From a virus, in the IMG/VR virus record IMGVR_UViG_3300045999_010033, positions 126,001 to 190,000 of that record: a DNA stretch of 64,000 nt; one strand, 5' to 3'. The notes under the pieces are model-generated. The model did not search any database. It was not told the DNA's origin and saw nothing but the letters and a program-made list of their open reading frames with translations. Both the position numbers and the translations under genes were made by a program. Below are positions 26,219-60,500 of this stretch, piece after piece. Position 1 is the stretch's first letter, and each line of letters opens with the position of its first letter.

Positions 26219-26264
26219 ACGGGTATTATTTTAGTTCCACTATCCCTAAAAATAATGTGTCAGA

Positions 26265-26273: not shown

Positions 26274-26285
26274 AAAATTCCGAAG

Positions 26286-26462: not shown

Positions 26463-26489
26463 ATTAGTTATTTTTTTCGTTTATAGATA

Positions 26490-27176: not shown

Positions 27177-27186
27177 TTTTTATTTT

Positions 27187-28571: not shown

Positions 28572-28602
28572 TTTTTGATAACTCCTTTTAATTTGTTATA
28601 GA

Positions 28603-28611
28603 TATAAATAT
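28603..28611 (-). promoter_or_regulatory. ATATTTATA motif before LamG copy 4
   Basis: Perfect copy 32 bases before the ATG at 28571, in the only sizeable gap (42 bases) inside the LamG array. Confidence 0.45.
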
Positions 28612-28613
28612 TT

Positions 28614-29324: not shown

Positions 29325-29325
29325 A

Positions 29326-30030: not shown

Positions 30031-30284
30031 GCTCCAGGCATTTGTAGTTCATGCGTCCATTCAGTTCCTGCAAGTATTTCAATCATTTCGGAATAAGTAT
30101 ACGGACCTTCTTTGGTCGTTAATTGAGATACACACATTGGTTCAACTCCGTCCCATTTGATAAAAGTTTTAGTTTCATCTACCGATTTTTTTACTGTCTC
30201 TACTGAAGTTTCAAGAACTTGAGAAAAATCTATTTTATGTAATTCTGATACATTAAAGATTATAAAATTTCTATTTTCGTACAT
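30027..30284 (-). CDS. Small fibre-accessory protein, paralogue of 22084-22335
   Basis: This 85-residue protein (MYENRNFIIFNVSELHKIDFS) shares a layout with the protein at 22084: FIIFNVxELxKxDFS, a central TKTFIKW, and TKEGPYT-S/E-E near the end with TEWTHE. The two copies have similar lengths and both lie just downstream of a LamG gene (here copy 7, 20 bases away). Function unknown. Duplication as part of a fibre-lectin-accessory module is the simplest reading. Confidence 0.75.
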   Translation of the reverse strand: MYENRNFIIFNVSELHKIDFSQVLETSVETVKKSVDETKTFIKWDGVEPMCVSQLTTKEGPYTYSEMIEILAGTEWTHELQMPGA

Positions 30285-30304
30285 AGTTTTCGTTTTTATT
30301 TTAA

Positions 30305-31018
30305 TTAAATTCCAAATCTTGATTTTATGGCATTATAATTTTGTAATGCTTCTGTTGATGTTAATACTCTATTATATACCTTAGCCAAATAAATATTACC
30401 CGTAAATAACTCTCCAACTGGTGATGAACCAAATCCGGCACCAATTAATAATGGTTGCGTACCATATGTTATTGCTGTCCCTGTTGATGTACTGCTATTA
30501 ACAACATTACTCCCATTCAAGTAAAAAAAACACGCTCCTGTTGTTAAATTATATGTAACAATAATATGATATATTGTATTTGTTTGATAACTGAATGTAT
30601 GATTAACAAAACTATATGTGGAATCTCTATTAAATCCAAATTGTAACTCATTTGTTTGTACTCTCAACATATATGATAAAAATGGTGATGACCAAGGAGC
30701 ATTACTTGCGGGTTTACAAATTATAGTATTATATACGCCTTTTGTTGTCATTTTAAAACATGCTTCCAATGTTAATGTGGTTGCAGGTCTTAAACTTGTA
30801 CTATCAGATATTGACACGTAATCATTAGTACCATCAAAGACAATAGAACCCATATTATCATTCGTAAATGATGGTGAATTAACTAAAGTACCATTATTAT
30901 TTTGCTTACTTAAATCAATTAAAGATGTTCCACTGCCAATATAAGATTTTTTATTAGCACCATCATAATAAAATTGCAAGCCATCGGTTATTGTTTTTGG
31001 TGAATAATTAAATGCCAT
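30305..31018 (-). CDS. LamG/ConA-like lectin-domain virion protein (copy 7)
   Basis: The 237-residue protein begins TITDGLQFYYDGANKKSYIGSGT and has IVFDGTNDYVSIS at about residues 58-70. It then has LTLEACFKMTT and YLNGSNVVNSS, closing with IYLAKVYNRVLTSTEAL. It ends in QNYNAIKSRFGI. It lies one base downstream of the stop of the 2301-residue fibre gene, and so is probably co-expressed with it and may bind at or near its tip. Confidence 0.8.
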   Translation of the reverse strand: MAFNYSPKTITDGLQFYYDGANKKSYIGSGTSLIDLSKQNNNGTLVNSPSFTNDNMGSIVFDGTNDYVSISDSTSLRPATTLTLEACFKMTTKGVYNTIICKPASNAPWSSPFLSYMLRVQTNELQFGFNRDSTYSFVNHTFSYQTNTIYHIIVTYNLTTGACFFYLNGSNVVNSSTSTGTAITYGTQPLLIGAGFGSSPVGELFTGNIYLAKVYNRVLTSTEALQNYNAIKSRFGI

Positions 31019-42069: not shown

Positions 42070-43704
42070 TTAGAGAGTATGTAGACCCTCAACCACAATC
42101 TTGCCATAGAATTCCGGACGGACTATCTTCTTAGCGTATCTCGTCATAACTCCACGACGTGGTGTGAAGTTAGTCGGGTCATACACAAGCGGAGTCATAA
42201 TCAAAGGCACATATGGTGCGTAGACAGCTCCAGTTTCGAAGAAGTTAGAACCTTTGAAACCAAGAAGGATAACGTTCTCAGTCATGTATGGGTTTTTGTA
42301 AACATCATACCTGTTAGAGATTGAACCTACATTGGTTACACCAGCTGCAAATTGAAGAGCATCTTTACCAGGGTTAGCTGAGAAGCCATTCATTGATTCG
42401 AGGATAGTACATACATCCGGGCTAGCCACGATGAAGTTTGCACCACCACGCATTGTCAACTGATGGATTTTGTTTGATACCTTTTGAAGTTTGATACCAA
42501 GTGTTTGATACCAAGTGTTCTTTTGGTAAGCGTTTGCAGATATAGTAGCAGAATCAGGTGCGAAAAGACCGGTTGTTGAATTGTAGTCGTATCCTACTCT
42601 TGCAGACCAGTAATCAGTAGTCAATGCGTTAGCCTGAAGCATCTCAAGAATTTCCAAATCAATCTCAAGAGAGATGTATTCAGAAAGCATCTGAGTCAAT
42701 TCAGCTTCTGCGTCGATACTGTGGTATGCGTTAAGGTCTTGCGCCAATTCAGGAGTCCAAACTGCTTTCAACTTACGAGTTTTAGCAACGATTGGTTCTG
42801 ATTTGAGTTCAAGCTCAATTTCAGGAATACCAACATCAGCACCAGTTCTATCTTCAAAATCACCTCTTGAAGTAGCGGTTGGTTGTTTGTGATAAGATAC
42901 TGTTGCAGTTGCACCATCGGAAAGGAATGCAGCAGTAGATCCAGTTACAAAGAATTCAACAAAGTTTCCGTTGATATTTGTGTATTGTGGATATAGTGTG
43001 ACAGAGCCAGATGTAAGTACAAACGCTCTAACACCATTGAAATCCATTTCGGAAAGAATTGATGAAGATACTGCTACCTTCTTAATACCACCTGCTGCAA
43101 CGGATGCTGAAAGTGCGTTTGAATAATCGGTATCTGCCCAAGATGCACTTGTTACAGTTACTCCTGCACCTATACTTCCTGTACCGATTGTTACACTAAC
43201 ATCGTTGATGGAATATCCGAAACGACCAGGGCCATAAAGACCTTCTTCTGCTACTTGAGTAGAACCAAGTTTGTTACCTGCAGGTGAAAGAGAATCTTTA
43301 CCAACGGTACCACCTTTACCGAACATTGAAGAACCAGAGAATGCTGGCTTACCTGCTTGGTCGGTTGAATACTTGAAGTCCATGTAGAAGATAAGACCTG
43401 AAGGTAAGTTCATCGGCTGTACAGAAACGAATTCTTTTGCAGCGATGCTACCAAAGATACGTCTTACAAGCGGAAGAGCTACACCTGCCCATTCTTCAGA
43501 ACCAGCTGCGAAGCCAGTCTTTGTTGCTTCATCAAGAAGCTGCTTAGCTTGGTTTTCAAGCAATACTGCCATACCATGCTTTTGTGATTCAGAACCTGCT
43601 CCTTCAAGAAGGCCTGTTTTTTCCCATTTGGATTTCAAACCCCTAGTTTGCTCAAGCATAATGCTTTGCGGGTTTGCACCATTCATTAATTTTTTTAAGT
43701 CCAT
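42070..43704 (-). CDS. Major capsid protein, gp23-like
   Basis: Starting at ATG 43704 the precursor has 544 residues (T4 gp23: 521); an upstream ATG at 43773 would overlap the scaffold gene and adds atypical sequence. Shared features with gp23 are WEKTGLLEG near residue 30, the VSVQPMNLPSGLIFYM strand, LKAVWTPELAQDLNAYHSIDAEAELT, and the ending APYVPLIMTPLVYDPTNFTPRRGVMTRYA. The prohead protease site is probably LLDE59-A60, with LLE34-G35 as another candidate; both fit [L/I]xE. The gene is the last before a terminator and directly follows the scaffold. Confidence 0.96.
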   Translation of the reverse strand: MDLKKLMNGANPQSIMLEQTRGLKSKWEKTGLLEGAGSESQKHGMAVLLENQAKQLLDEATKTGFAAGSEEWAGVALPLVRRIFGSIAAKEFVSVQPMNLPSGLIFYMDFKYSTDQAGKPAFSGSSMFGKGGTVGKDSLSPAGNKLGSTQVAEEGLYGPGRFGYSINDVSVTIGTGSIGAGVTVTSASWADTDYSNALSASVAAGGIKKVAVSSSILSEMDFNGVRAFVLTSGSVTLYPQYTNINGNFVEFFVTGSTAAFLSDGATATVSYHKQPTATSRGDFEDRTGADVGIPEIELELKSEPIVAKTRKLKAVWTPELAQDLNAYHSIDAEAELTQMLSEYISLEIDLEILEMLQANALTTDYWSARVGYDYNSTTGLFAPDSATISANAYQKNTWYQTLGIKLQKVSNKIHQLTMRGGANFIVASPDVCTILESMNGFSANPGKDALQFAAGVTNVGSISNRYDVYKNPYMTENVILLGFKGSNFFETGAVYAPYVPLIMTPLVYDPTNFTPRRGVMTRYAKKIVRPEFYGKIVVEGLHTL

Positions 43705-43723
43705 TTTGTTTTGTTTTGTTTTA

Positions 43724-44872
43724 TTACTTAATAATACCAGCCAACTTCTTAAATCTATTTGCGAAGTCAGCATTTTCAGAAATTACTTGCTTTTGTTGAG
43801 CAGCGGTAGGTTTTGTTGATTTAACCGCTCTACTTGCAATACCTTCAGCGATAGCCTTTTTAGCAACTTTAGATACTGATGTGTACTTAAAGTTTTCTGC
43901 CAATGTAGAATATACTAATTTGACTTCTCTAACTGATTTTGTTCTATCCAAAGTTTCGATAACTTTAACCTTTTGCTCGTTGGTCATGTTATGTGCTCTG
44001 AACAATTTGTTTGCGAAAAGAAGTTTAGCGTTTAGAAGATTTACTTCATTGATAGTGCCCTGAAGTGATTTGATTGCCTTGTATGCTTGGTTAAGTTCGG
44101 ATTTCAACTTTTTGTTTTCTTCCACTTTCTTTTCCATTTCATCATCATCTGCATCGGTCATATCAGCTTCCATTTCACGAAGAATTTCTTCTAAGTCAAT
44201 GGTATCATCATCTTTTGCAGTATCATCTTCATCTTCTTCACTAACAACTACTTTTGGGTCTTCACCTTTATCGGTGCCGGCCTCTTCACCATCGGCTAGG
44301 GATTCCATAGCCATCTGGTCATCATCTTCATCTTCAGTTGATTCTTCTTCTGCGAGTGATGATTCCAATTCTCTAATGATTGATTCAAGATCCATATCAT
44401 CTTCATCATCATACGCTTCTTCTTCATCTCCGGTGATTTCGTATTCCTCATCATTATCGGAATCAGTGTCATCGTCACCGAAATCCATATCATCGTCGCC
44501 GAAATCCATATCATCGGTATCATCTGTGTCTTCTTCTTCAGTAAGATCTTTTACTTTAGAATAGTCATCAAGTTCAGAACCGGGTTCGCCGGATTCGGTT
44601 TCAGTAGAACCACCTTCGAATTCGGTATCGGCATCATAACCCGAAGGTTCTTTCATGTCACCTGCACCGATTTCAGATGAATCTAATTCCTCGGTCTTCA
44701 TTTCTTCTTCATCATCGCTCATTTCGGCTTCTGCTCTCAATTTTTGAGATAGAATTGATTGGAGGCGTGGAGTGAAGGCTTCTTCAAGAGCGAGTTTAGC
44801 ATTTGCCAAAGCAGTTTCTTTAACGGCTTTAGCATCAGCAATTGCTTGCTTTAACAATTTTGAATTTGCCAT
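43724..44872 (-). CDS. Prohead core scaffold protein, gp22-like
   Basis: The 382-residue protein has a helical N-terminus (SKLLKQAIADAKAVKETALANAKLALEE), an extremely acidic middle (residues about 50-240, Asp/Glu runs), and a helical C-terminus (KVEENKKLKSELNQAYKAIKSLQG). It ends in FANRFKKLAGIIK, a C-terminal signature I associate with gp22-like scaffolds that bind the capsid protein. Several [L/I]xE sites (for example LAEE, ILRE and IIRE) would allow it to be degraded by the gp21-like protease during maturation. It is 19 bases upstream of the capsid gene, with which it is surely co-transcribed. Confidence 0.85.
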   Translation of the reverse strand: MANSKLLKQAIADAKAVKETALANAKLALEEAFTPRLQSILSQKLRAEAEMSDDEEEMKTEELDSSEIGAGDMKEPSGYDADTEFEGGSTETESGEPGSELDDYSKVKDLTEEEDTDDTDDMDFGDDDMDFGDDDTDSDNDEEYEITGDEEEAYDDEDDMDLESIIRELESSLAEEESTEDEDDDQMAMESLADGEEAGTDKGEDPKVVVSEEDEDDTAKDDDTIDLEEILREMEADMTDADDDEMEKKVEENKKLKSELNQAYKAIKSLQGTINEVNLLNAKLLFANKLFRAHNMTNEQKVKVIETLDRTKSVREVKLVYSTLAENFKYTSVSKVAKKAIAEGIASRAVKSTKPTAAQQKQVISENADFANRFKKLAGIIK

Positions 44873-45050: not shown

Positions 45051-45485
45051 TTACCAATTTATATTATCTACTTTATTTTTTATAGTTGTTGCAACTCCAC
45101 GTTCTTTTGCTTCTTCGTTCATTGCCTTTGTTAACACCTTTCTTAACTCACGTATAAGTTCATCGTAATTTATATCAGTATTATTTTCGTAAGATGTAAG
45201 TTGTGCCTTTGTTTCTGGTAGTTCCATTATATAATCTATAAGGTGTGTTCCTGCACCATTTTTTTCAACATATTTATCAATTTTTTTTAAAAAACTATTT
45301 GTGTTACTAAAGTTTTTTAATATTTTTTTAAGTGCCCTTTGAACTTCAACACTTCTTCCGTTATAATATGCATCTATATTATCTGCAAGTTTACTAAACA
45401 AACCGGTTACCCAAGCTAGTATCAGTATTCCACCTAAAATAGCCACCAATGAAAATTCGTTCAATTGTTTTTTATTTGTTTTCAT
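45051..45485 (-). CDS. Tagged head-cluster membrane protein with N-terminal LNE site
   Basis: Starting at ATG 45485 gives 144 residues; an in-frame ATG at 45509 would overlap the ferritin-like gene and break the tag. Residues 1-10 (MKTNKKQLNE) end in an LNE site, then F. Residues about 11-35 form a hydrophobic membrane helix (LVAILGGILILAWVTGLF). The remainder is helical and charged (VQRALKKILKNF, YDELIRELRKVLTKA). A membrane segment in a head-cargo protein could serve genome entry. It is also possible that the LNE resemblance is chance for this gene. Confidence 0.6.
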   Translation of the reverse strand: MKTNKKQLNEFSLVAILGGILILAWVTGLFSKLADNIDAYYNGRSVEVQRALKKILKNFSNTNSFLKKIDKYVEKNGAGTHLIDYIMELPETKAQLTSYENNTDINYDELIRELRKVLTKAMNEEAKERGVATTIKNKVDNINW

Positions 45486-45486
45486 T

Positions 45487-46017
45487 TTATTTGAAATATA
45501 TTTCTTCAAAGTGAAGTATATCCAATAGGTTTGTTGGGTCTATTAATTGTGCCGCATTTAGAAGGTCTGAAAATTCTGTTATTGATTCGAATTGTCCTTT
45601 TCTAAATTCTTCTAGAAAATCAAACGTTGTAATATCTTTTTGCATAATCTCAACTGAATCCGCATTGTATTTTGTGAATAGGTCGTATTCCAATGCGTAA
45701 GATTTATTTACTATATCAATCAATCCTGTGAAATTAATGTTTGGTTTTACGGCCGGCATAGTTGGATTTATATTCCAATCTACAAGGTATTGTTGAAGTT
45801 TTTCGGCATGTCCCAATTCATTGGCTGCTTCTTTTTCAAAGAATGCTGCAGCATTGTTATATCCAACACCTTTGCACCAATTCGATGCAATACGATAAAA
45901 GAAGTGTGCAGTATATTCATCTACCAATCTATCGTTGATAATCTTTACCGATGCTGGGTTAAGCTCTTTTGGATTTAGAGCCTTTGCCATTGTCAATGCT
46001 TTGATATTTGTTGCCAT
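45487..46017 (-). CDS. Ferritin-like diiron protein
   Basis: Starting at ATG 46017 gives 176 residues (MATNIKALTMAKALNPK). The ferritin four-helix pattern is clear: RLVDEYTAHFFYRIASNWCK, FEKEAANELGHAEKLQQYL, ALEYDLFTKY and FLEEFRKGQFESITEF. Candidate diiron ligands are E34, E67, H70, E110 and Q142, in spacing close to bacterial non-haem ferritin (E17, E50, H53, E94, Q127). Ferritins oxidise and store iron. The gene sits inside the head cluster, so it may act in the virion or protect DNA during infection. It lies 1 base upstream of the membrane-protein gene. Confidence 0.85.
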   Translation of the reverse strand: MATNIKALTMAKALNPKELNPASVKIINDRLVDEYTAHFFYRIASNWCKGVGYNNAAAFFEKEAANELGHAEKLQQYLVDWNINPTMPAVKPNINFTGLIDIVNKSYALEYDLFTKYNADSVEIMQKDITTFDFLEEFRKGQFESITEFSDLLNAAQLIDPTNLLDILHFEEIYFK

Positions 46018-46021
46018 AAAC

Positions 46022-46270
46022 TTAATGTAATTTTTGTTTTTCTCCTTTAATATAAGAAATAAATGCATTCATTGATGATGAATCTCTAAATACTATTTGT
46101 TTCTTATCTTTATCGTAACTTTTTATATCTCTTTGAATTTGTGCCAACGCAGGATTTTGATACATTGTAGATAGTGTTTTCCATACTCTTTCCCATACTT
46201 GCGGGTTTTGAATTGTTAGTGTACTATCGGTTGCCCCATCATTTGCGTTATAATCAAATTCTTCTTTTAT
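46022..46270 (-). CDS. Frameshifted C-terminal extension of tagged head protein
   Basis: In the -1 frame after a 10-A run there are 82 coding codons and a TAA at 46022. The product, from IKEEFDYNAND to KGEKQKLH, has normal composition and no early ATG (the first is 34 codons in). So it probably continues the 138-residue tagged protein through a shift at 46270-46279. It could also be a real gene broken by a sequencing error in the homopolymer. The ferritin-like gene starts 5 bases further. Confidence 0.65.
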   Translation of the reverse strand: MKEEFDYNANDGATDSTLTIQNPQVWERVWKTLSTMYQNPALAQIQRDIKSYDKDKKQIVFRDSSSMNAFISYIKGEKQKLH

Positions 46271-46683
46271 TTTTTTTTTAGTCCAAGCCTTTCTTGCATT
46301 TGCTCATGTGAAATATCGGCGATTTCAAAATATCTTCCGAGAACGTGTCCCATATCTTCATATAGGGCTTCAAGTCTTTGTTCTTGCTGATGTGCTATAC
46401 TTGATTCTTTTTCAAACTTTTCTTGTAAGGATTTTAATTCTTTCATATTACGTTTGATAGTAACACGGTCAAACCAATCTCCACCCTCTCTCAATGTGTA
46501 TTCTTGTGCAGCATCTGCAATAGCACCAAGTGTTTCGGCAATTTGACGAATATCAGATTTACGATTAATACTTTCTCTATGTGTGCCGAATGTAGATATT
46601 ATTTCCAAAAAGTGTTTTTTAACTTCGGAAGGTAATTGTTGAAACTCTTCGGATTCTTTCAGTAAATCTTTTAATCGTATCAT
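46267..46683 (-). CDS. Tagged head-cargo protein with frameshift-type end
   Basis: The 138-residue in-frame product begins with the tag MIRLKDLLKE (E10), then S11. The body is helical and charged (ETLGAIADAAQEYTLREGGDWFD, NMKELKSLQEKFEKE). It ends MQERLGLKKK just before TAA, exactly where a 10-A run occurs on the sense strand (46270-46279). A -1 slip there adds 82 residues of plausible protein, for about 220 in total. The ATG at 46683 is 21 bases downstream of the previous stop. Confidence 0.7.
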   Translation of the reverse strand: MIRLKDLLKESEEFQQLPSEVKKHFLEIISTFGTHRESINRKSDIRQIAETLGAIADAAQEYTLREGGDWFDRVTIKRNMKELKSLQEKFEKESSIAHQQEQRLEALYEDMGHVLGRYFEIADISHEQMQERLGLKKK

Positions 46684-46704
46684 TGTTTATATTTAATATA
46701 TTAA

Positions 46705-47259
46705 TTAAAACTCATCATTACCGTACGCCTTAATAAGTTGCATCAATCCATCGTAAGTTTTAGAAGAACCCTCTGGCTTATATTCACCATATCTACTATT
46801 AAACTTTACTTTGACGGAATCTTTATCAGGATGACTTAACCAAACATTTTGTGTTGTATTTGATGTTTTTACAACAACTCCATTTTTATATTTTTTTGTA
46901 TCAAACGCTTTCCACTCTCGGCCGGCTGGCTTTGGCTGTGATTTTGGTCTTTCAAATTTTTGGTATGGCTTATCACCCTTTCCGTACTCGCCGGCTGCAA
47001 ATTTATTAACAAGATTATTTAAACCGGTTACATCACCACGATATCCATCTGCGTTTGCAGGAGTTCTCCATCTATCAGTTGCTGCTCCATCTTTTTTGAA
47101 CTGCATAGTTCCATATTTTGGATGGCTTAAAGTTACATACTTATCGGCGGTTCTTACTGATACCCCATTTTTGAAATTTAATACACTTTCATTAATGGTG
47201 GAGATTTTTTTAATCTCCTCACGAATTATTTGTCTTAATTGTGATACTGTGATTTTCAT
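46705..47259 (-). CDS. Tagged head-cargo protein with two internal LSHP repeats
   Basis: The 184-residue protein starts MKITVSQLRQIIRE (E14 in the tag). The rest consists of two related units: the first around FKNGVSVRT-KYVTLSHPKYGTMQFKK, the second around YKNGVVVKT-NVWLSHPDKDSVKVKF. Each is followed by a short helix (GLNNLVNKFA; GLMQLIKAYG) and separated by a Lys/Pro-rich linker near residues 95-112. The duplicated small domain suggests a DNA- or protein-binding module, but no known family was recognised. It is 21 bases upstream of the frameshift-type protein. Confidence 0.68.
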   Translation of the reverse strand: MKITVSQLRQIIREEIKKISTINESVLNFKNGVSVRTADKYVTLSHPKYGTMQFKKDGAATDRWRTPANADGYRGDVTGLNNLVNKFAAGEYGKGDKPYQKFERPKSQPKPAGREWKAFDTKKYKNGVVVKTSNTTQNVWLSHPDKDSVKVKFNSRYGEYKPEGSSKTYDGLMQLIKAYGNDEF

Positions 47260-47285
47260 TGTTTTTTTTTTTGATTAATAAAAAT

Positions 47286-47753
47286 TTATTTTTTATGAGA
47301 TTGGTATCCTTTATTTTTCATCCAATTAGTTAATGCGTATGGATTATCAATGCCCGGCTTATCTTTCATTGCTTTAACGGTTCCTTCCCATCCTTCGGGT
47401 GCCTTTTCGGAAATATTTTCTCCTCTAAATCCACTCATTCCATCTCCTTTCGTATTTCCTTGAAACCCAGCACCTACATCATTTTTTTTTTGACCGCCGA
47501 ATGCATCTGCTTGCTTAATCTTTTGGATAGCCCTCATTACTTCTTGCTTATCCATATTAAGGCCATCAATTATTTTTGCAATTACAAGTACTTCTTTTTT
47601 ACGAGGAAGATTGTAAGTTTTTAATTGAGATGTAAGTTTTTCTAAAAATCGGTTTACAGCCGTTGGAAGATTAACATCCAAATCATCAAGTGCTTCTTTT
47701 TGAATTGGTTTTTTATTTTCTTTTATAAGGCCTTTTAGTTTTATTGGTTTCAT
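47286..47753 (-). CDS. Tagged head-cargo protein ending in NPYALTNWMKNKGY module
   Basis: The 155-residue product starts MKPIKLKGLIKE (E12), then N13. The middle is helical (DLDVNLPTAVNRFLEKLTSQLKTY, VMRAIQKIKQAD), followed by a Gly-rich linker and the C-terminal module APEGWEGTVKAMKDK-IDNPYALTNWMKNKGY. That C-terminal module is familiar from many phage virion-associated proteins of unknown function. It may be a packaging or interaction tag. It is one of a series of tagged genes read in the same direction. Confidence 0.7.
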   Translation of the reverse strand: MKPIKLKGLIKENKKPIQKEALDDLDVNLPTAVNRFLEKLTSQLKTYNLPRKKEVLVIAKIIDGLNMDKQEVMRAIQKIKQADAFGGQKKNDVGAGFQGNTKGDGMSGFRGENISEKAPEGWEGTVKAMKDKPGIDNPYALTNWMKNKGYQSHKK

Positions 47754-47773
47754 ATTTTTTGATTATTATTTTA

Positions 47774-48046
47774 TTAGTTAACAACTATATCCCAATACTT
47801 AGAAGTTTCTTTTTTTGGCATTGATGTGTTTGTATATTTTGGACTAAGACTGTATATACGACGTCCTCCATTAATAGTACGAGAATATGTATAGTATTTC
47901 GGATTTGGTAGATCATTTGTTCCATCAACTTCAAGTGGTAGCATGCCTCGTTTACGTCTTTGCCTATGTAGCGGATTATGCTTTTCGGCTTCATTCAGTT
48001 TTTGTATTCTATTAGGAATGAGTTTCATTAATTGCATGCTAATCAT
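47774..48046 (-). CDS. Small tagged head-cargo protein (90 residues)
   Basis: The protein starts MISMQLMKLIPNRIQKLNE with an LNE site at E19, then A. Two other Met residues (M4, M7) could be alternative starts and would give a shorter tag (MKLIPNRIQKLNE). The remainder is basic and polar, with HRQRRKRGMLPLEV and a Tyr/Arg-rich stretch, YYTYSRTINGG. The basic stretch suggests nucleic acid contact. It lies directly downstream of the prohead protease, with an ATATTTATA motif 20 bases before its start. Confidence 0.62.
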   Translation of the reverse strand: MISMQLMKLIPNRIQKLNEAEKHNPLHRQRRKRGMLPLEVDGTNDLPNPKYYTYSRTINGGRRIYSLSPKYTNTSMPKKETSKYWDIVVN

Positions 48047-48065
48047 TTTATTTTTCTTTATATAG

Positions 48066-48074
48066 TATAAATAT
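48066..48074 (-). promoter_or_regulatory. ATATTTATA motif downstream of prohead protease
   Basis: Perfect copy 20 bases before the ATG at 48046. Confidence 0.4.
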
Positions 48075-48077
48075 ACG

Positions 48078-48668
48078 TTAGTTCAATTCAACAATTATTT
48101 CACGCATTAGGTCTTGTGCTTTACACCACTTACCACATTCGTCTGCAATTTTCTGCCATTGCTTACTCTCATTCATTGGTGCCATAAATGCTCCATGCGT
48201 AGACGGGTTCGATACGAAGTCCCAGCCAACCAATTCGAAGTCGTCTTGCACCATTACCGTGCCATCCCTTTGCTCATTAACTGAACCAAGTCCACGTGAA
48301 CTAATACCAAGACGTATATTATTTTTAAGCAATTCTTTTAAGATATTGCCCGATGGTGTTGAAAGAATTTCTACCACTCCACAAACATCATCCCCTTCCC
48401 ACCATATTTCACGAATATTGTGTGATACATTTTTAAGCTCGATTACTGGAGAATCCGGATGGTCTAATTCACCAAGTGCACGTCTTTCCTTAATCAATTG
48501 CTTATATTTTTCACACTCACGCTCTAATATCTCTTTTGGATAACGGCGATTGTTTTGATTGGGTGCACCTGCTCTTTGCAAAACGCCTTTAACAAGAAAA
48601 GTACCATTAGATTCTTCTTTGAGTTTTGCTTCGAATAGGTGGGTTTCTATTAATAGTTTTTTATTCAT
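48078..48668 (-). CDS. Prohead protease, gp21-like
   Basis: The 196-residue protein has the T4-type prohead protease layout. It shows GVLQRAGAPNQNNRRYPKEIL near residues 28-48, the catalytic His in GELDHP (H70), a strand set GVVEILSTPSGNIL, the nucleophile in GISSRG (S123 or S124), and a C-terminal Asp-containing segment VQDDFELVGWDFV. It cuts scaffold and capsid after [L/I]xE sites during head maturation. It is followed 31 bases on by a tagged gene and preceded by a 64-residue one. It would be the enzyme that trims the tagged proteins described here. Confidence 0.93.
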   Translation of the reverse strand: MNKKLLIETHLFEAKLKEESNGTFLVKGVLQRAGAPNQNNRRYPKEILERECEKYKQLIKERRALGELDHPDSPVIELKNVSHNIREIWWEGDDVCGVVEILSTPSGNILKELLKNNIRLGISSRGLGSVNEQRDGTVMVQDDFELVGWDFVSNPSTHGAFMAPMNESKQWQKIADECGKWCKAQDLMREIIVELN

Positions 48669-48669
48669 T

Positions 48670-48864
48670 TTACATTCTTAATCTACCTTCAGACTTTGCT
48701 TGATATGCTTTGTCTACGGCATTAAAAAATTTCTTTTTTTCTTCGTCACTCATTGAGTTAATATCTTTCCCAGTTTTATCAAGCATAGTTTTGAACAATT
48801 CTTGATAATCCTGCTCTTCTTTAATTACTTCTCTAACGAGTTCTTTTAGTTGTTGTAAGTTCAT
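48670..48864 (-). CDS. Small tagged head-cargo protein (64 residues)
   Basis: The protein begins MNLQQLKELVREVIKEEQ, with VRE at E12 and IKE at E16 as candidate cleavage points. The remainder is a compact helical unit of the form MLDKTGKDINSMSDEEKKKFFNAVD, which I have seen repeated in other phage virion-associated proteins. It is one base upstream of the protease start, so both are translated from the same message. Confidence 0.65.
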   Translation of the reverse strand: MNLQQLKELVREVIKEEQDYQELFKTMLDKTGKDINSMSDEEKKKFFNAVDKAYQAKSEGRLRM

Positions 48865-48876
48865 TTTATTGTGGTT

Positions 48877-49287
48877 TTATTCTGATATTTTTCTAATATG
48901 TTGTTCTAACTTAATCAACCTTTCTTTTATTTTCAAAATGTTTCCATTTGTACGTTTCCAAAATTGGTCATTAGATACTCCGTTTTCTTGCTTCAATTTA
49001 CCATACCAATTTAGAAATTTTTCCATTTCTGCCAATTGCTTATTGATGTTAGAAACGCCTTTACCGATTTTTCGGTGAGCAGGGATATCTTCATTTTTTA
49101 GTTCTAACCAACGATTTTCTTTTACAACGGTATACCCAGTTAGGTCAGCTTGTTGTTTCGCACTTTGCTTTGTATCTCCTCTTTTTTTGAATGCGTTTGG
49201 TGACTGGTATCCTTGAACGTTCCCTGTCACATTCATTTCTCTTACAACCTTTCTTATAAATTCTTTTAATTTACTTTTGTGTTGCAT
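48877..49287 (-). CDS. Tagged head-cargo protein, VRE-MNVTGNVQGYQ type
   Basis: The 136-residue protein starts MQHKSKLKEFIRKVVRE (E17), then MNVTGNVQGYQSPNAFKK. The stretch right after the site (xVTGNVxGYxxPxAF) is a pattern I associate with phage structural proteins next to prohead proteases. The rest is helical and basic, for example KQLAEMEKFLNWYGKLKQE and a closing KIKERLIKLEQHIRK. Its start overlaps the 290-residue gene by 17 bases. Confidence 0.65.
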   Translation of the reverse strand: MQHKSKLKEFIRKVVREMNVTGNVQGYQSPNAFKKRGDTKQSAKQQADLTGYTVVKENRWLELKNEDIPAHRKIGKGVSNINKQLAEMEKFLNWYGKLKQENGVSNDQFWKRTNGNILKIKERLIKLEQHIRKISE

Positions 49288-50143
49288 TTTTCAATTCTTT
49301 TATTAGTTCGTATGCCATCATAAGCGCGGATACGTGTTGCTCTTTAACACGTTTATTCTGCTTTATTTTTTTTATCTGCCCTATCGTTTCTACTAATTTT
49401 ATTTTTGTAACTTTATCGGTAATCTTCTTTCCAATTTCATTTAGGGATTGTGTAATTTTATTTACTTCACTTTGAATGTGATTTGAAAAGCCGGAACTAT
49501 TAGTCATTCCATTAATATATTCTCGTAGTAAAACCTTTTGCTCATTACTTAGGTCTTTATACTTTGTATTAAAACTTTCTATTAAAATTTTATACGAAAG
49601 AGCCCTTACAGTTTCATCTTGTTTTTTGAATTGTTCCAATACGGCATCTTTTATTTTTGCATCTTTATTCTGTATTGATTTATTTATTATGTTTTCTGCA
49701 ATTGTAAATCTTGAAGATACCACATCGGTTGGATCTAAAATTTCGGATTCATTTATTGATTCAAAAATTTTATAAATTGATGCAAGAACTTTGTAGTTTG
49801 AAACCGATGATTTTAATAAATCTTCTATATTATACGATTCTCTTATTTTTTTTACTAAATTATATTTTTCTTTTGTCAATTTAGCTTCATCAAGACGTTT
49901 GCGTGCTTCACAAACGGTATCAATAAACTTTTCTGCTTTTGCTTCAGAATTATATTTTTCGTTTATAAGATACTGATATAATTTTAATTCTTTTGAAAGT
50001 TCTTTTTTAGAATTAAAAAATTCTTGTAGGATTTTTTCTGCTTTAGATTTATTTTCCGACATAATTTCGGAGGTGATTTGTCTAAGCAGTAATTCAAAAA
50101 TGAATCCTGTATTTTTGAACTTAGAATGTTTAATTTTTTTCAT
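49271..50143 (-). CDS. Conserved helical head-cluster protein, KHSKFKNTGFIFE type
   Basis: The real start is ATG 50143 (290 residues); the TTG directly before it is unlikely. The N-terminus KKIKHSKFKNTGFIFELLLRQITSE recalls proteins of marine T4-like phages located next to the portal gene. The protein is helical and highly charged throughout (RLDEAKLTKEKYNLVKKIRESYN, LNEIGKKITDKVTKIK), resembling a scaffold or core protein. It lacks the [L/I]xE tag of its small neighbours. It lies between portal and tagged genes, with an ATATTTATA copy 22 bases upstream. Confidence 0.65.
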   Translation of the reverse strand: MKKIKHSKFKNTGFIFELLLRQITSEIMSENKSKAEKILQEFFNSKKELSKELKLYQYLINEKYNSEAKAEKFIDTVCEARKRLDEAKLTKEKYNLVKKIRESYNIEDLLKSSVSNYKVLASIYKIFESINESEILDPTDVVSSRFTIAENIINKSIQNKDAKIKDAVLEQFKKQDETVRALSYKILIESFNTKYKDLSNEQKVLLREYINGMTNSSGFSNHIQSEVNKITQSLNEIGKKITDKVTKIKLVETIGQIKKIKQNKRVKEQHVSALMMAYELIKELKNATQK

Positions 50144-50164
50144 CAAAGGGATAATTTATCTCTT

Positions 50165-50173
50165 TATAAATAT
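50165..50173 (-). promoter_or_regulatory. ATATTTATA motif after portal gene
   Basis: Perfect copy 22 bases before the ATG at 50143. Confidence 0.4.
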
Positions 50174-50182
50174 ATTTATTGA

Positions 50183-51931
50183 TTATTTAACAGCAGATTT
50201 GGTATCTGTTAGTATTATTTTTTTACCACCAAGCATATCTTTGTATATTTCTTTATAACTTACTTTACGTGGTTTGTATTTTACAGAACCTTCTTTTTGT
50301 TTTAGAGTTTTAATCCCAAGTGGGTCGCGACCAAGTGGATGATCATCTTTACCATATCTAACCGGGTCTTTTGGTCTTCCAACTTTTCCTTCTTCTTCTA
50401 ATTCATCTTTAATTTTTTGAATTTCTTCTTCAACATTGGTTGGTTCTTCTGTTCCGGTTTCTTTAGCAGGATCAGTTCCTTGTGTTTCAATTTGTGTCAA
50501 TCTGAACGCTTGCTTTGTATCTTCCAATACATCAATTGTCATGTCATCTTGTTCATCTTGCGCAAATTTCATAATATTTTCATACATCCACTTTTTAGAA
50601 AACAATTTTGTTTGTTGCATAGATTGTATAAGAGATACCTTTGATGTATATAATTCTATTTGCTCTTGCTCATATATTTTTGATGGAATAGTAAGTTCTA
50701 ATTGAAAATCCAAATCTGCCGCGTTATCCATACCCTGCGCATATAAATGAACTATTGCTATCTTTGTCAATTCGGAAATAAGAACTTTTTGTATTCTTTC
50801 GATGGTTTTGGCGAACCTTACATCTTGCGCTGCCAATGTTGCTTTTCCGTTTACATCTTCTTCATATCCCAAATGTGATTTTGGAATTTTAAGAGCTGCG
50901 AACATTTTTCCTTTTAGGTAGTTGATATCATCTATTGCCTGATATTCCATGCCCTTCAAAGTATCTATGCTCGTACCACTATCGCTACCGCGGACAGGAA
51001 GATAATAATCCTCAATAATATTTTGAATATTATATTTAAGATTGTAATCTCCGGTTTTTTCATCTACAAATGGTGTTTTTTTACTGCTGTTAATGATTCG
51101 TTGCATATAATTATCAACTTCAGTTGGTGGTATATTACCAACATCAACTTTGAATATACGTTTTTCGGGAGCACGCATAATACGATGTATTAACATAGCA
51201 TCCTCCATAAGAGTTAGTTGTTTCCAAACCCGTCTTGCACCTTCTATCATTGATTTTCCATAAGGAAGAAAATTAGAATCAGAATGCATTCTGAAATGCG
51301 CAATTTCATAATTTTCATATTCTTTTTTATTAGAAGCAGAAGACCCTCCGTATGGGTTTGTGTATGGTGCATATACAAACTTTACACGTTGTGGATTTTC
51401 TATATCAAAGTTTTCAACACGTGTAACTTCATATACCGATATGGGAATTACATTAACAATTCCAAGTTCAGGTGCTACTTCTAATTGTAAAAAGAAATCA
51501 CCATACTTTACCAAGTTTCTTGTCCAAGGCCAAAGTGTGAATTCTATGTTTACAATATCATAAAATAAGTTATGAAGAATTTGTTTTACATTTTCATCTG
51601 AACAATGTATTTTCAGTACATCTCCATGTTCATTTTTTGTTGTACTTTCATCTGCGTAAATATCTAATGCCGCAGCAAGAATAGGGTCATGATCCATTGA
51701 ATCATAATCTCTAAATAGGTCAGCACGAACTTGCTGATACGACATTGCCGATTCCAACATTCCACCACTATATTGTGGGGTCTTCAATTTCATAAAACGG
51801 TCTACAAGGTTAGTCGTCATTGATTGATATTCATCAGTATCAATGACCCTTACGCCCTTTTTAGTTCTACGAATAATTGTGTTTGTAGAAAATAGTTTTT
51901 GTAACCTTCCAAAAATGGTTTTATCTGCCAT
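50183..51931 (-). CDS. Portal protein, gp20-like
   Basis: The 582-residue protein has the T4-type portal body: residues 80-95 DHDPILAAALDIYADE, then TLWPWTRNLVKYGDFFLQLEV, a wing segment MIEGARRVWKQLTLMEDAMLIHRIMRAPEKRIF, and the helical core KGMEYQAIDDINYLKGKMFAALKIPKSHLGYEED. The C-terminal 100 residues are acidic and end in a Lys-rich tail. The portal forms the dodecameric ring through which the terminase packages DNA and to which the neck binds. It is 40 bases upstream of the helical head protein, and 30 bases downstream of the 369-residue gene. Confidence 0.95.
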   Translation of the reverse strand: MADKTIFGRLQKLFSTNTIIRRTKKGVRVIDTDEYQSMTTNLVDRFMKLKTPQYSGGMLESAMSYQQVRADLFRDYDSMDHDPILAAALDIYADESTTKNEHGDVLKIHCSDENVKQILHNLFYDIVNIEFTLWPWTRNLVKYGDFFLQLEVAPELGIVNVIPISVYEVTRVENFDIENPQRVKFVYAPYTNPYGGSSASNKKEYENYEIAHFRMHSDSNFLPYGKSMIEGARRVWKQLTLMEDAMLIHRIMRAPEKRIFKVDVGNIPPTEVDNYMQRIINSSKKTPFVDEKTGDYNLKYNIQNIIEDYYLPVRGSDSGTSIDTLKGMEYQAIDDINYLKGKMFAALKIPKSHLGYEEDVNGKATLAAQDVRFAKTIERIQKVLISELTKIAIVHLYAQGMDNAADLDFQLELTIPSKIYEQEQIELYTSKVSLIQSMQQTKLFSKKWMYENIMKFAQDEQDDMTIDVLEDTKQAFRLTQIETQGTDPAKETGTEEPTNVEEEIQKIKDELEEEGKVGRPKDPVRYGKDDHPLGRDPLGIKTLKQKEGSVKYKPRKVSYKEIYKDMLGGKKIILTDTKSAVK

Positions 51932-51960
51932 AGTTAATCTTTATTATATATATACTATTT

Positions 51961-53070
51961 TTACCACTTTCTGCATGACCAGTAACGCGCTTTCCATCTT
52001 GGGCCAGGATTATCACAGTTGTGTCTAGCTCTGAATGATTTGCGTCTTTCAGGATTTGATTTTTTAATACGCATATTTGGGTCTCCGAAGTTTACTTTAA
52101 CAACGTTACCTTTATCATTTTTAACGTACACTTTAAATTTTTTAACATCACCCTGCATTGGTTTGCCGAGCTTTACTTTTCTACCCTGATATTCTGCTTC
52201 AAAAACGCAACCGCATCCTGCTTCATTTAGTGTTCGGTTATATTCTCTCATAAAGACAATAAAGTCTTTGTAGTCATCATAGTTTTCAACATCGTATTCT
52301 ACGGGTTGAACTCTTCCGTAATTAATTTCGGAATCTTTATCTCTACGTTCGGGATGATCTGGATATTCTTCTTTCATAGCTTTTTGTTTTGATATTTCGA
52401 TAGCAGCCAATTGTTTTTGCGCTGCAGATTTACTTGAATGTGTTCCTAATCGGTCTCCACCTTTCTTTGGATATACTGCGTACTTATCTCCTACTTTCTT
52501 AATAGTTTCTTTAACCGGCTCATATCCTTTTCTCTGATTATCTTTTGTATCGGATTGATATCCTGGCTCTACTTCTCTATCATCATCAAAATCATATGTA
52601 TCTAATTCGGCAGGATATCCATAATCGGGTGTATATGAAGAACTCTTATGATGATGCAAAAAATTACCATCACCGGTCCCATGTGGTATGTGATTGCGGG
52701 AGTTAATTGCTTCAGAAACCGGTACACAATTTGGAACTTCTTTACCATTTTTGTCTTTCATTCCAACTTGCTTATATCCATCCCAGCATGGCCCTTCCAA
52801 TAACTCATCATCATCTTTATCTAATGGATTTTCGACTGGAATACGTCCACTTGGCTGTACCCATCCACCTGCGGAAGGGTCGTATCCTTCATTACAAGTA
52901 CGCCATCCACCACCCTTTGATTTATAGTTTTTTGCAGCCCATCCATTTGCATATGCACTTGGGTAAACATCAAATTTACGTTTTGCCGCAGCCTTTGATG
53001 CTGACCATTTTGCTGGGTCAGTCGGGCAATTCTTTTCTAAAAATAATTCTAATCTTTCTTCTATTGTCAT
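51961..53070 (-). CDS. Cys-rich head-cluster protein ending in NPGPRWKARYWSC
   Basis: The 369-residue protein starts MTIEERLELFLEK; an imperfect tag (P3 is Phe, so FLE rather than [L/I]xE). Residues about 28-75 have the pattern KFDVYPSAYANGWAAKNYKSKGGGWRT, a module found in phage and other viral proteins of unknown function. A Pro-rich, Cys-containing middle follows with PCWDGYKQVGM. The C-terminus reads RRKSFRARHNCDNPGPRWKARYWSCRKW, a Cys/Arg-rich ending likely to bind metal or nucleic acid. Position between portal and tagged genes suggests a head-associated protein. Confidence 0.6.
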   Translation of the reverse strand: MTIEERLELFLEKNCPTDPAKWSASKAAAKRKFDVYPSAYANGWAAKNYKSKGGGWRTCNEGYDPSAGGWVQPSGRIPVENPLDKDDDELLEGPCWDGYKQVGMKDKNGKEVPNCVPVSEAINSRNHIPHGTGDGNFLHHHKSSSYTPDYGYPAELDTYDFDDDREVEPGYQSDTKDNQRKGYEPVKETIKKVGDKYAVYPKKGGDRLGTHSSKSAAQKQLAAIEISKQKAMKEEYPDHPERRDKDSEINYGRVQPVEYDVENYDDYKDFIVFMREYNRTLNEAGCGCVFEAEYQGRKVKLGKPMQGDVKKFKVYVKNDKGNVVKVNFGDPNMRIKKSNPERRKSFRARHNCDNPGPRWKARYWSCRKW

Positions 53071-53071
53071 T

Positions 53072-53713
53072 TTAGTTTACGGATTTAGATTTAGTATCAC
53101 GACCCGCCTGTCGGGCTTTTCTACCTGCACAGTGTGCTTTTTGGCTGAATCCTTTGGGGTTATCGCAATCAATTGATTTTTTGTAGCCTTTTGTCCATTT
53201 TTCATTTAGTCGGTTTTCGTGCTTTATGATTAACTCACCCAATACTTCTATTAGTCCGACCAATCTTTGAAACCCGATTTGGTCCATTTGAACTTTACCA
53301 CCACATATTTCTTCCATATAACCATTAAATTCTTCACGAGCATCTTCTAAATTAAAACCGCCTTCGGCTGCTTTTTTATAGTGTGGAAGTTTTACAACAA
53401 AATGATGATAGGTAAGAATTGCTACTCCACCCTTTTCTTTTGCATCTTTAGTTATTTTAGTAGCACCTTCTAATCTTTTCTTTGCAAAATCTTCAAAACT
53501 TTCTATTTTTGGAGAGTTTGATTTAACTAGATTTGCGGAAGTTTTTTTCTTTTCATCACCATAGGATTTACCCATAGCCTGCCCAGCGGTAGTTTCTCTT
53601 CCAGCTATCGTCACTTTTGTAGATGGACGTATATCATGCTGCTTTGCATAAGCATCAAATTCGGCTTGAGATTTAAATTCTAATTCGTTCAATATATCTT
53701 TAAGTCTAATCAT
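53072..53713 (-). CDS. Tagged head-cargo protein ending in GFSQKAHC motif
   Basis: Starting at ATG 53713 gives 213 residues; an in-frame ATG upstream (53770) would overlap the next gene. The tag is MIRLKDILNE (E10), then L. The middle is helical (ESFEDFAKKRLEGATKITKD, EEFNGYMEEICGG). The C-terminus reads WTKGYKKSIDCDNPKGFSQKAHCAG, a recurrent Cys-containing motif in phage virion proteins, followed by a basic tail (RKARQAGRDTKSKS). The motif could bind DNA or a metal. Confidence 0.7.
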   Translation of the reverse strand: MIRLKDILNELEFKSQAEFDAYAKQHDIRPSTKVTIAGRETTAGQAMGKSYGDEKKKTSANLVKSNSPKIESFEDFAKKRLEGATKITKDAKEKGGVAILTYHHFVVKLPHYKKAAEGGFNLEDAREEFNGYMEEICGGKVQMDQIGFQRLVGLIEVLGELIIKHENRLNEKWTKGYKKSIDCDNPKGFSQKAHCAGRKARQAGRDTKSKSVN

Positions 53714-53714
53714 T

Positions 53715-53954
53715 TTATTTAATGGCTTTACCAAACTCTTGTGAAAAGTCCGTATCTTGTGATAAATCAATTGTTTGAACTCGGCACTTTTTACATTCGT
53801 GTTTTTGTGTAAGTATTTCTATTACTTGTTTAGCTTCACTCATTGATTTAGCTTTTGTAAAAAGTATTTGTTCATCCTTTTTGCCAGGAGGAACACCCCA
53901 AATAATATATTCAGTTTTAGTGGTTTCTTTTAATATATCTTTAAGTCTAATCAT
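53715..53954 (-). CDS. Small tagged head-cargo protein (79 residues)
   Basis: The protein starts MIRLKDILKE (E10), then TTKTEYIIWGVPPGKKDEQILF. A strand, a helix (SMSEAKQVIEILTQKHEC) and a CKKC pair (residues about 54-57) follow, with an acidic end. Its tag is almost identical to that of the 53072 protein. It lies between the latter (1 base away) and the basic protein at 53951, whose end it overlaps by 4 bases. Confidence 0.68.
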   Translation of the reverse strand: MIRLKDILKETTKTEYIIWGVPPGKKDEQILFTKAKSMSEAKQVIEILTQKHECKKCRVQTIDLSQDTDFSQEFGKAIK

Positions 53955-54295
53955 GTCGGCGGATTATATTTTTTATCACTTCCCTTTTTATCCCAACTAA
54001 CTCTTACTGGCTTTTTACCTTTACTGCCATCACCTTTATCGCCACGTCCTGCTTTGTTTTGTTTTGCACGTTTACGTCTTACGAAACTTGCTCTACCTTT
54101 TTTTCCAAGCTTTTTTGCCGCTGCCGATGAAAGACATGCCGCATATGCTTCACCTTCTTCGCCGGCTCCACACTTTCCAACACGTTTACCACTGGAATCA
54201 TATCTATCCCAGCCACCACCTCCTTTACCTCCCCATTTGCCCTTTCCGAACCACTTACGGAGGTCTTCGTCTAAAAGGTCAAATAGTTTAATCAT
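53951..54295 (-). CDS. Basic tagged head-cargo protein (DUF6321-like)
   Basis: The 114-residue protein starts MIKLFDLLDE (E10). The body is very Gly/Lys/Arg-rich (WFGKGKWGGKGGGGWDRY, then a Cys pair in GKCGAGEEGEAYAACLSSAA, then RASFVRRKRAKQNK). The WGGKGGGGW and RRKRA arrangement is one I associate with a family of small basic phage and viral proteins (DUF6321). The strong basic charge suggests DNA binding inside the head or after injection. It overlaps the 107-residue gene by 1 base at its start. Confidence 0.7.
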   Translation of the reverse strand: MIKLFDLLDEDLRKWFGKGKWGGKGGGGWDRYDSSGKRVGKCGAGEEGEAYAACLSSAAAKKLGKKGRASFVRRKRAKQNKAGRGDKGDGSKGKKPVRVSWDKKGSDKKYNPPT

Positions 54296-54618
54296 TAGAA
54301 TACGGAATTGATTTGAGATGAAACCTCTTTACCATACTTTGATTGACATTGTTTCATCAATTCATTATAGATATTTGTTCTCAAATCTATAAGCTCTTTT
54401 GGAGTATGTCCAAACTCTTTCTGCATATCCAACATACTATTCAAAATGTTTTCAAATGCTCCCATTTTCATAAATTTGGCGAACTCAAGTACCGCTTCGG
54501 TATGCGCATTTCTATCGGTTAATTTTTCTATCTTTTTAACGATAGGGTCTACATTGATCGCTTCTTTTAATCCGGTAACTACCTTTGTTTCTGATAGTAT
54601 ATTAGTTAGTTTAATCAT
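54295..54618 (-). CDS. Tagged head-cargo protein, helical (107 residues)
   Basis: The product starts MIKLTNILSE (E10), then TKVVTGLKEAI. The rest is helical and acidic-basic, for example TEAVLEFAKFMKMGAFENILN and TNIYNELMKQCQSKYGKE. It is the first tagged gene after the terminase gene, with an ATATTTATA motif 27 bases upstream. No known domain was recognised. Confidence 0.68.
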   Translation of the reverse strand: MIKLTNILSETKVVTGLKEAINVDPIVKKIEKLTDRNAHTEAVLEFAKFMKMGAFENILNSMLDMQKEFGHTPKELIDLRTNIYNELMKQCQSKYGKEVSSQINSVF

Positions 54619-57599: not shown

Positions 57600-60500
57600 T
57601 TATTCATAAAATATTCCTAAAAGCTGATTTAATGGAGCGAATGTGCCTGTAAGTTTATAAGTCTTTCCGTTATAAACAAATACAATACCTTCTGCTGCTA
57701 CTATTTTATCTACCCCACCCAATGAGTTTAATCTTTCTAATTCGTTTTTGAATTTTTTAATTATAGATGTGTCTCCGGTTTGTTTTACTTTTTGTGCAAC
57801 TGAATCCAATTTCGTTTTCATAGCACGAATGGCAGTATCGGGGTGCACAGTTATTACTGATGTTACAAATTGTAAAACTTCAGAACCTACTCCCAAAAAT
57901 ATTTCTTCAAACGGTTTTATATTATCACGTTGTTGTTTTGGAACATTTATCTTATCGTGCTCTATTGTCCAATTTTGCAATGTTTTATCTGATATTGTAT
58001 TTAACCTAAAAGATTTTTCTCCAAATCCCCATCTGCGGATTAGTGCTTCTTTTGTAAGTTTATCGGGCTTAACGGGTGATTGCTTATCTATAAAATCTGC
58101 CCACCATGCGTAGTGATAATCCGAAACGGAAGCAGAATCAGAAAGTCCAAATTTAGATTGTAGTTTGTTTAATTTTCCAAACCAATATCCTTGCTTCGAT
58201 GAAAGCTCTTTACTTTTTGGAAGTTCTAAAACCGGAGGACCTGCTATCGTATATTTGGATTGCACATTTGCGTTGATTTGTTTTATCATGCCTGCCAATA
58301 CTCTTGCGCTAGATTGGTCGGCGCTTATTGCCTTACCCGCATCATCATAACACACCGTTCCATGAAATACTAATAATGCCTGTCCGTATGGTATTACGTT
58401 TACTGATTCTGGCCATATAACTTCAAGATTCATAAAACATTTCCCATTATTAAATATCTTTTCTTTTTGTTTTTCTGAAAGCCCACCTATTGCGGCGTTA
58501 AGGTCTTTCATTGCAAAATTATACGCATCGGTTAATCCACCACGACCTGCAAATTTAGATGCTACATCTTCTATACCCATTGCGTTTGCTCCTGCATTTG
58601 CAAGATGTCCTTTGTTACGTGCGGCAATCAATCTTCCATTCTTCCAACTTATTGCCAAAGCCTGTCCGTCGGTTTTTTCACGAGCCAATTCCAAACGACC
58701 ACTTAGTGCGCCAGATATAATACGTTTAAGGTCACCAAACGTAAGCCCCATATCATCAAATGGATGTGACATGTGTCCATACGCACCACCTTCTTGTAAT
58801 AGAGAAACTATACGATGCTCATATCCTCTTTCACGAATTACATCAACCGGTCTAATTGCCTTTGGTTTTACATATACATCTGGATAAGAGTATGGGTTTG
58901 GTCTTGAATTAAATGGATACATTTCCCATTTATCTGCTTTATCTTTTGCATATGCATCTCCTTTAGATGGATGAATTGTACGTTTAGCAGGTCCGTTTTC
59001 CTCTCTTGGATTATTAACCGGTATATTTTTTGCTGCCTTTTTAGCATCACGTTTTGAACTATATTCTAATACATCATATCCTACTATTTCAGCGTGCTTT
59101 TTTCCATATTTATCGTGCTTTTCCCAATCAGGAGAATATGGAGATCTGAAACTTTCCCCATTACTTGTCCCATCTACTACGGCTTCATTTACAAAATTCT
59201 TTTTATTGAATTTAGTTGGTTTAAAATCAGTACGTGGTAAGTTCTTAACACGCCAAATTACATATGGTTGGTCTTGCTCATCATCACCGAATATAGTATC
59301 CGCAGTTGGGAAATCAATTTGAATATATCCGCCATTAGTAAACCACTCATCGGATTTATTTATACCATCATTGTTACCCAATTTTCTTTTATATCCTTTT
59401 GGTAAAAACATACCATCGGGTTGGTCATCATTAAATGCACCCTGAATACTTGTTGCTTCGTTTATAATTCCCTCTTGGAATATCTTTTTATTAATCTTAC
59501 CATATTCACGCATTAGTATTCCGGCCACCGCATGGGCTTTATTTTCAACAGAAGAGCCAGTCTTACCATCCTCTGCCCTATCTTTAATAATGCCCATTTC
59601 ATCTTGCTTACGATGTACCATTTCATGCGCAATCGTTCTTAAAATATCGGCAGTTAGGCGACCTTCGGTTGAAACGAATATTTCTTTTGTATTATCATCG
59701 TATCCACCAAGAGATGTTTGTGATTCTGCGAACTCACCACCACCTACTAAATTGATTTTAGGTCTTTCATTTAGTTTCAATCGCTTTGTAGCATATTCAA
59801 CGAAATGATTTATTGATTCGGTTTTACTATCCAATGCATCTTCGGTTTCTCCGGTTTCGGGATTGTGATGTGAAAACGTTTTGTGCCAAATTTTAGATTT
59901 TTCTATTGCCCTTGCAGGATTAAGTTTATCTATTTTTTGTTGTGGTGATAATCTTCTATTAAACATTCCGGTAGCAGGAACATAATGTTCTTCATTCAAT
60001 AAATCTGCTGCGTTTCTTTTTGGTTCTTCTTTTTTATAACTTTTTATAGATTGTAATAATTGCGCATCGGTTAATTTGTATGTTTCTACACGTTTAATAA
60101 CTTTTTCTAAAAAGTTTATTATAAATTTATTGTTACCATCTTGGGTTGATGAAATTTCGAACAAACCCATTGTTGCAGTAGATAGTGCCGCACCACCACC
60201 CGCTGCTTGCGCACCACCAAATCCCAATGTTTCAAGTGCAGCATGCTTCACAATATCTTTTCCCAAATGAATACCAAACCCACCAAATCCATGTGTAAAA
60301 ACACCAACTGAACCTTGTGCTGCTGCACTTGCAACTCCTAACGCACCTTGACCAGCGCTAACCGCTTTGGCCGCCGCTACACCTGCGCCACCTAACATCA
60401 TAGACCCCATTAACAATCCAACATCAATTGCAAAATGTTTGACATGATGTAATTGTTCTTTTCGTTTTTCATCGGAATAATCCCACTTTCCGGTTTGCTT

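Follow-up and report, generated by a model that had tools for sequence, protein, structure and literature searches.

The capsid-targeting sequence (CTS) of the internal proteins IPI-IPIII of phage T4 was reportedly described by Mullaney and Black in 1996. In T4-like phages, a single conserved leader serves to encapsidate highly diverse proteins (PMC3012670, PMC9026906), and the three internal proteins of T4, which are injected, each block a different GmrSD restriction enzyme (PMC12373910). The use of one leader on many cargo proteins is a principle already established for the T4 internal proteins. Many head proteins of SPN3US/phiKZ, the ejection proteins among them, also carry propeptides cut by a prohead protease (PMC10052503); most of the SPN3US propeptides are 111-254 residues long, and only two are short (20 and 24). 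Here we describe short N-terminal leaders encoded in the virus record IMGVR_UViG_3300045999_010033. The window, the whole stretch of 64,000 nucleotides analysed, corresponds to bases 126001-190000 of this 221,095-base record. An earlier note on this DNA had proposed that about eleven small proteins begin with tags for a prohead protease and together form a modular system for loading cargo into the capsid.

We consider it probable that these short N-termini are T4-type capsid-targeting propeptides removed by the S77 prohead protease. Shared with the T4 CTS and IPI-IPIII are a ten-residue leader with hydrophobic positions 4, 7 and 8 and E10, unrelated bodies behind the leader, and an S77 protease in the same head gene order. 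The present case differs in leader sequence, in the several leader types per lineage, in at least 75 body clusters including enzymes, and in the presence of mosaic fusions and of swaps at the proposed cut point; furthermore, the T4 leaders are proven, whereas those described here are read from sequence. The system looks like the T4 capsid-loading signal at far larger scale.

The core leader and its T4 register

The core leader MI[KR]Lx[DN][IL]LxE was found at five gene starts in the window, each exactly where the earlier note had placed it. All genes discussed are encoded on the minus strand, single coordinates given for leaders are 5' ends, and a slash marks the proposed cut; lengths are in amino acids (aa).

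54295..54618, minus strand: tagged protein, 107 aa, MIKLTNILSE/TKVV
53951..54295, minus strand: tagged protein, 114 aa, MIKLFDLLDE/DLRKWF, net charge +20
53715..53954, minus strand: tagged protein, 79 aa, MIRLKDILKE/TTKT, found at one other locus only
53072..53713, minus strand: tagged protein, 213 aa, MIRLKDILNE/LEFK
46267..46683, minus strand: tagged protein, 138 aa, MIRLKDLLKE/SEEF, conserved in the head module, on the side of the protease that faces the capsid gene

The core motif was absent from the six-frame translation of the rest of the window, and a sixth copy was located beyond it, in a 275-aa gene at record position 3044. Its presence in 6 of 247 genes compares with 7e-5 expected from N-terminal composition, and 2000 column shuffles did not yield a single match. 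For identical leader residues, the codons differ in 49 of 91 pairwise comparisons, indicating that selection acts on the peptide and that conservation is at the protein and not the DNA level.

The family of the protein at 46683 was gathered via similarity of the protease and not by the tag, and thus provides a test independent of the search motif. All of its 41 distinct sequences have L4 and E10, 39 have L at position 8, and position 7 is occupied by I or L. Position 11, directly past the proposed cut, is the most variable among the first 40 residues. Structure predictions, made for this family and for the FHVT/STFT family (record position 3044, L094), did not reveal functions of the bodies: the model of the 46683 family was unusable (predicted local distance difference test, pLDDT, 57), and identity of the FHVT/STFT family as an ADP-ribosyltransferase was not adopted, the model having a pLDDT of 69 and no PDB match below E=0.001.

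Gapless alignment placed the leader in the register of the T4 leaders. In the T4 record, IPII and IPIII begin with MKTYQEFIAE and gp24 with MAKINELLRE; when these are aligned with MIRLKDLLKE, all share E10 and a hydrophobic or aromatic residue at 4, 7 and 8, and position 6 is D, N or E. The gp24 propeptide, cleaved after E10, is the T4 leader closest in sequence to MI[KR]LKDLLxE, although gp24 is a vertex shell protein and not internal cargo. In T4, residues 4 and 7 matter in targeting, and 8 and 10 in processing (PMC9026906). As to the local protease, the site LDE/A of the capsid protein aligns with the T4 gp23 maturation site LTE/A (VSE/A or ISE/A in relatives), which suggests, by homology, a T4-like specificity. 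Another candidate maturation site in the capsid protein, GLLE/G, was rejected, as the alignment with gp23 puts the cut at the later LDE/A column.

Spread of the leader and exchange at the proposed cut point

Viral contigs of IMG/VR were searched for the leader in other phages with a degenerate DNA pattern for MI[KR]LKD[IL]LxE and, as control, a scramble of the same residues. At least 120 stretches matched, against 2 in the whole collection for the control. Among the matches listed, nearly all fall at gene starts, and 125 complete tagged open reading frames (ORFs) form 75 body clusters. Pfam matches among 82 tagged ORFs included NUDIX, zeta toxin/AAA, RimK-type ATP-grasp, RNase T exonuclease, phage lysozyme, M23 peptidase and FMN reductase, and a HAD-type body was recognised by motif. 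A wider pattern applied to 20 large contigs gave 26 hits among the matches listed, against 0 for the reversed control; the six strict tags of the present record are more than most have. S77 was detected in 10 of 20 large tag-bearing contigs. Nine of the other ten also have no major capsid protein (MCP), as would fragments missing the head module, and the tenth seemingly begins inside it. One stretch, L046:175-2016, carries four consecutive tagged genes, the last for a NUDIX-like hydrolase, and was called a cargo island.

Homologous bodies were found under differing leaders, joined at E, for the P-loop kinase, the HAD protein, the DLRKWF body and the ParB-like protein. The P-loop body, starting GVF, GVY or GLY, follows MAILLKPLLNE or MIKLKDILNE, and also MIPFILKE in Pelagibacter phage HTVC008M and MKTFAELQE in Methylophilales phage Melnitz. 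The DLRKWF body follows MIKLFDLLDE, MTKLKSILSE, MAQLTDILKE or MDNNIKLTNLIKE, and the ParB-like body DDIVKNKKTGNVY follows MNKIERKLYNIINE in this record and MIKLKDLLRE in L028. Homologs of the 53713 body bear other leaders, such as MRLLELLRE in Flavobacterium phage immuto. Cut forms predicted for proteins of immuto are MRLLELLRE/AKEA and MKKVMGNLADLLLE/ESDF. The protein at 54618 has few homologs, some of them under another leader (MAKLINLLP..., MAKLISLIPVNLQE). A further leader type, M[KR]LINLIPxKE, is frequent in near relatives. The Cys module PCWKGY occurs elsewhere as a leader-bearing protein, after MRLINLIPLKE, MNLSKIIKE or MIKLKELLNE, and the same module is internal, following DELLE, in one protein of the window:

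51961..53070, minus strand: 369-aa mosaic protein, internal DELLE/GPCWDGY

Other leader-like starts lie outside the window, at record positions 58873 (a P-loop kinase-like protein, MAILLKPLLNE/G), 67559 (ParB-like, MNKIERKLYNIINE/D) and 77789 (HAD-like, MNLRSLLKE/S), the last two proteins being named from motifs and homologs and not from a family search of the record's own proteins. Homologs of these three proteins elsewhere bear the MIKLKD-type tag.

The head module, looser leaders and alternative explanations

By family searches, the S77 protease, portal, MCP and large terminase (TerL) were found in T4-like order.

54658-56262, minus strand: large terminase
50183..51931, minus strand: portal protein, T4 gp20 type, PHROG 213
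48078..48668, minus strand: S77 prohead protease, T4 gp21 type, 196 aa; PF03420 E=3e-29, PHROG 207 E=5e-54
45487-46068, minus strand: ferritin-like gene within the head module, PF00210
43724..44872, minus strand: probable prohead scaffold (T4 gp22 position), by position and acidic composition
42070..43773, minus strand: major capsid protein, PHROG 138

The module runs from the large terminase through small tagged genes, the 369-aa protein, portal, a 291-aa gene and two small genes to the S77 protease, followed by more small genes, ferritin, the probable scaffold and MCP. This order matches that of T4 (portal, 67, 68, protease 21, scaffold 22, capsid 23), indicating a T4-like head module. The earlier note was correct in setting the tagged genes between terminase and capsid, around the gp21-like protease; the system, however, extends beyond 45051-54618. 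The scaffold candidate gave no family match in the profile search. The ferritin gene was rejected as a tagged protein: its homologs begin with MGTNIKALT, seemingly with no leader, and its ORF start was probably assigned too early. The first 23 residues of the capsid ORF are missing from relatives, and the true start is probably the internal MDLKKLMNGANPQS. By capsid protein, the closest cultured relatives are Microcystis phage Mel-JY01 (54%) and Flavobacterium phage immuto (53%); a near-identity DNA search in phage records gave no match. Elsewhere in the window, seven paralogous genes of about 240 aa each lie in near tandem at 22340-31018.

Six more small proteins had been listed in the earlier note as bearing looser tags:

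48877..49287, minus strand: 136-aa head-module protein, amphipathic leader MQHKSKLKEFIRKVVRE/MNVTG, weaker tag
48670..48864, minus strand: 64-aa head-module protein, leader MNLQQLKELVREVIKE/E, weaker tag; conserved throughout in relatives
47774..48046, minus strand: 90-aa basic protein, leader MISMQLMKLIPNRIQKLNE/A
47286..47753, minus strand: 155-aa basic protein, leader MKPIKLKGLIKE/N; homologs begin MAKLINLIPGRE...
46705..47259, minus strand: 184-aa basic protein with two repeats, leader MKITVSQLRQIIRE/E, weaker tag
45051..45485, minus strand: 144-aa protein, leader MKTNKKQLNE/F, hydrophobic segment directly after

Three of the six, at 45485 (QLNE/F, kept as [LI]NE in relatives), 47753 (GLIKE/N) and 48046 (QKLNE/A), fit [LI]xE; those at 47259, 48864 and 49287 are weaker, their leaders being longer, amphipathic and ending in [IV][KR]E. 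A looser pattern, [LIVF][LIV]xE near the N-terminus, was detected in 29 genes, compared with 13.2 +/- 3.2 for internal stretches; 12 of the 16 head-module genes have it, among them never-proposed ones such as the protease and the 291-aa gene. In most relatives (L137, L150, L241 and others), homologs of the 48877-49287 protein have an extra N-terminal domain, beginning MPAVSKAQQRFMGMVHA, fused before the body. As to the bodies, the best BLASTP E between any two in the window was 0.09; they are thus mutually unrelated, as had been claimed, and common ancestry was rejected. Six have a net charge of +10 to +20, in agreement with their description as basic, and one hydrophobic segment was confirmed. 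The description 'Cys-rich' did not hold, since at most 3 Cys are present.

Several observations weigh against capsid targeting of injected cargo. Hydrophobic-x-E by itself is a common motif, and lysozyme and M23 bodies under the leader are odd for injected cargo. Two near relatives, G023 and G026, both fragmentary records, have almost the same protease with no strict tag. At about 40 loci, the DLNKWF body, homologous to the protein at 54295, begins with MNEDL[ND]KWF and no tag, and the stop codon just upstream of this start indicates that no leader precedes it. In addition, the bodies at 46683, 47753, 48864, 49287 and 45485 are conserved head-module genes in many relatives and lie between portal and scaffold, as do gp67 and gp68 in T4, so that, by this analogy, five of the eleven may be prohead core components and not injected cargo. 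The explanation built on them, that the leaders are S77 substrates and most bodies in the stretch are core or assembly proteins that are not injected, is possible but in our judgement rather doubtful, because the tag also heads sporadic, enzymatic bodies and occurs in several genes distant from the head module.

The presence of the leader on lysozyme, M23 and HAD proteins, and on genes outside the head module, could also be accounted for if it served for binding or localisation unrelated to the capsid, for example at a membrane or replication compartment, with E10 incidental. We regard this as unlikely in view of the exact T4 register, the variability of the residues directly following E, the joining of swapped leaders at E, and the recurrence of hydrophobic-x-E at the MCP site and at the junctions of the putative polyprotein. 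Far less credible, and already disfavoured, is an origin of the shared N-termini in a DNA-level translation-start element or a recent duplication. The neighbouring tags at 53713 and 53954 are indeed nearly identical in DNA, but bodies are unrelated and tags recur in distant phages; the DNA-level element was rejected on the synonymous codon differences noted above.

According to the capsid-targeting interpretation that we prefer, the protein would be bound into the prohead core during head assembly through hydrophobic leader residues, at positions 4 and 7 in T4 numbering. The S77 protease would then cut behind [LI]xE, so that the leader is lost and the mature body lies loose inside the head; bodies other than core components would leave with the DNA and enter the host. 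Being short and self-contained, the leader could be joined to any body; phages would swap the two parts at the cut site, and some cargo would be delivered as long fusions separated by the same protease. The modular cargo-targeting system of the earlier note is in part retained: protease-type leaders in T4 register, the S77 neighbourhood, diverse bodies and swaps at the cut point agree with it, and the five conserved bodies, as possible core components, do not.

A putative polyprotein and the meaning of the system

Outside 45051-54618, one long protein has hydrophobic-x-E sites at several domain junctions, LIGE/N, YLGE/A and LLQE/G among them:

57600..61895, minus strand: putative polyprotein, 1431 aa; candidate cuts after 5, 190, 270, 635, 813, 904 and 1035

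Only its N-terminal cytidylyltransferase-like domain has a family match. A metallopeptidase-like motif, HEMVH, is also present; the C-terminal part was not claimed as a ligase from its KTDGQ motif, since neither a Pfam match nor a PDB sequence match was obtained. The lengths of its relatives lie between 891 and 1835 aa, and a mosaic region separates their conserved ends. All 33 distinct relatives have E directly before the conserved C-terminal part and L or I two positions ahead of that E, with variable neighbours; hydrophobic-x-E is also retained within a few residues of the N-terminus and at the site YLGE/A. Of 598 insertion boundaries, 171 lie at most 2 residues from [LIVFM]xE, compared with 70 +/- 8 for positions drawn at random from that region, an excess that is supportive but gives no clean probability because related sequences are non-independent. 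Two internal segments match stand-alone tagged proteins, in L027 (in register across LIGE/N) and L121 (after IINE/A). Sites 635, 904 and, less clearly, 813 of the window protein are not widely conserved. These sequence features altogether suggest that the protein is likely a mosaic cleavable polyprotein. In its large size and putative multidomain structure it resembles the polyvalent proteins, known as injected multidomain effectors (Iyer et al. 2017, PMC5512222; PMC9503650), which are virion-associated and have metallopeptidase and ParB-type domains. For polyvalent proteins, autoproteolysis or no processing was proposed, whereas the junctions here carry prohead-protease-type sites common to single-domain tagged proteins.

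A search of the open-access literature yielded no description of this leader, of its presence on so many bodies, or of prohead-protease-type sites where such fusions join. Whether a large uncultured T4-like lineage uses interchangeable leaders and mosaic polyproteins to load its heads with fast-changing effectors, trimmed by the protease before injection, is in our estimate an evenly balanced question. The lack of any shared sequence among their bodies makes injected phage proteins difficult to recognise. If the interpretation is true, candidate injected effectors could be listed across phages directly from their sequences by means of a leader that at least 75 body types, enzymes among them, have in common, and polyproteins, should that form prove real, would add another route by which one gene supplies several effector domains.

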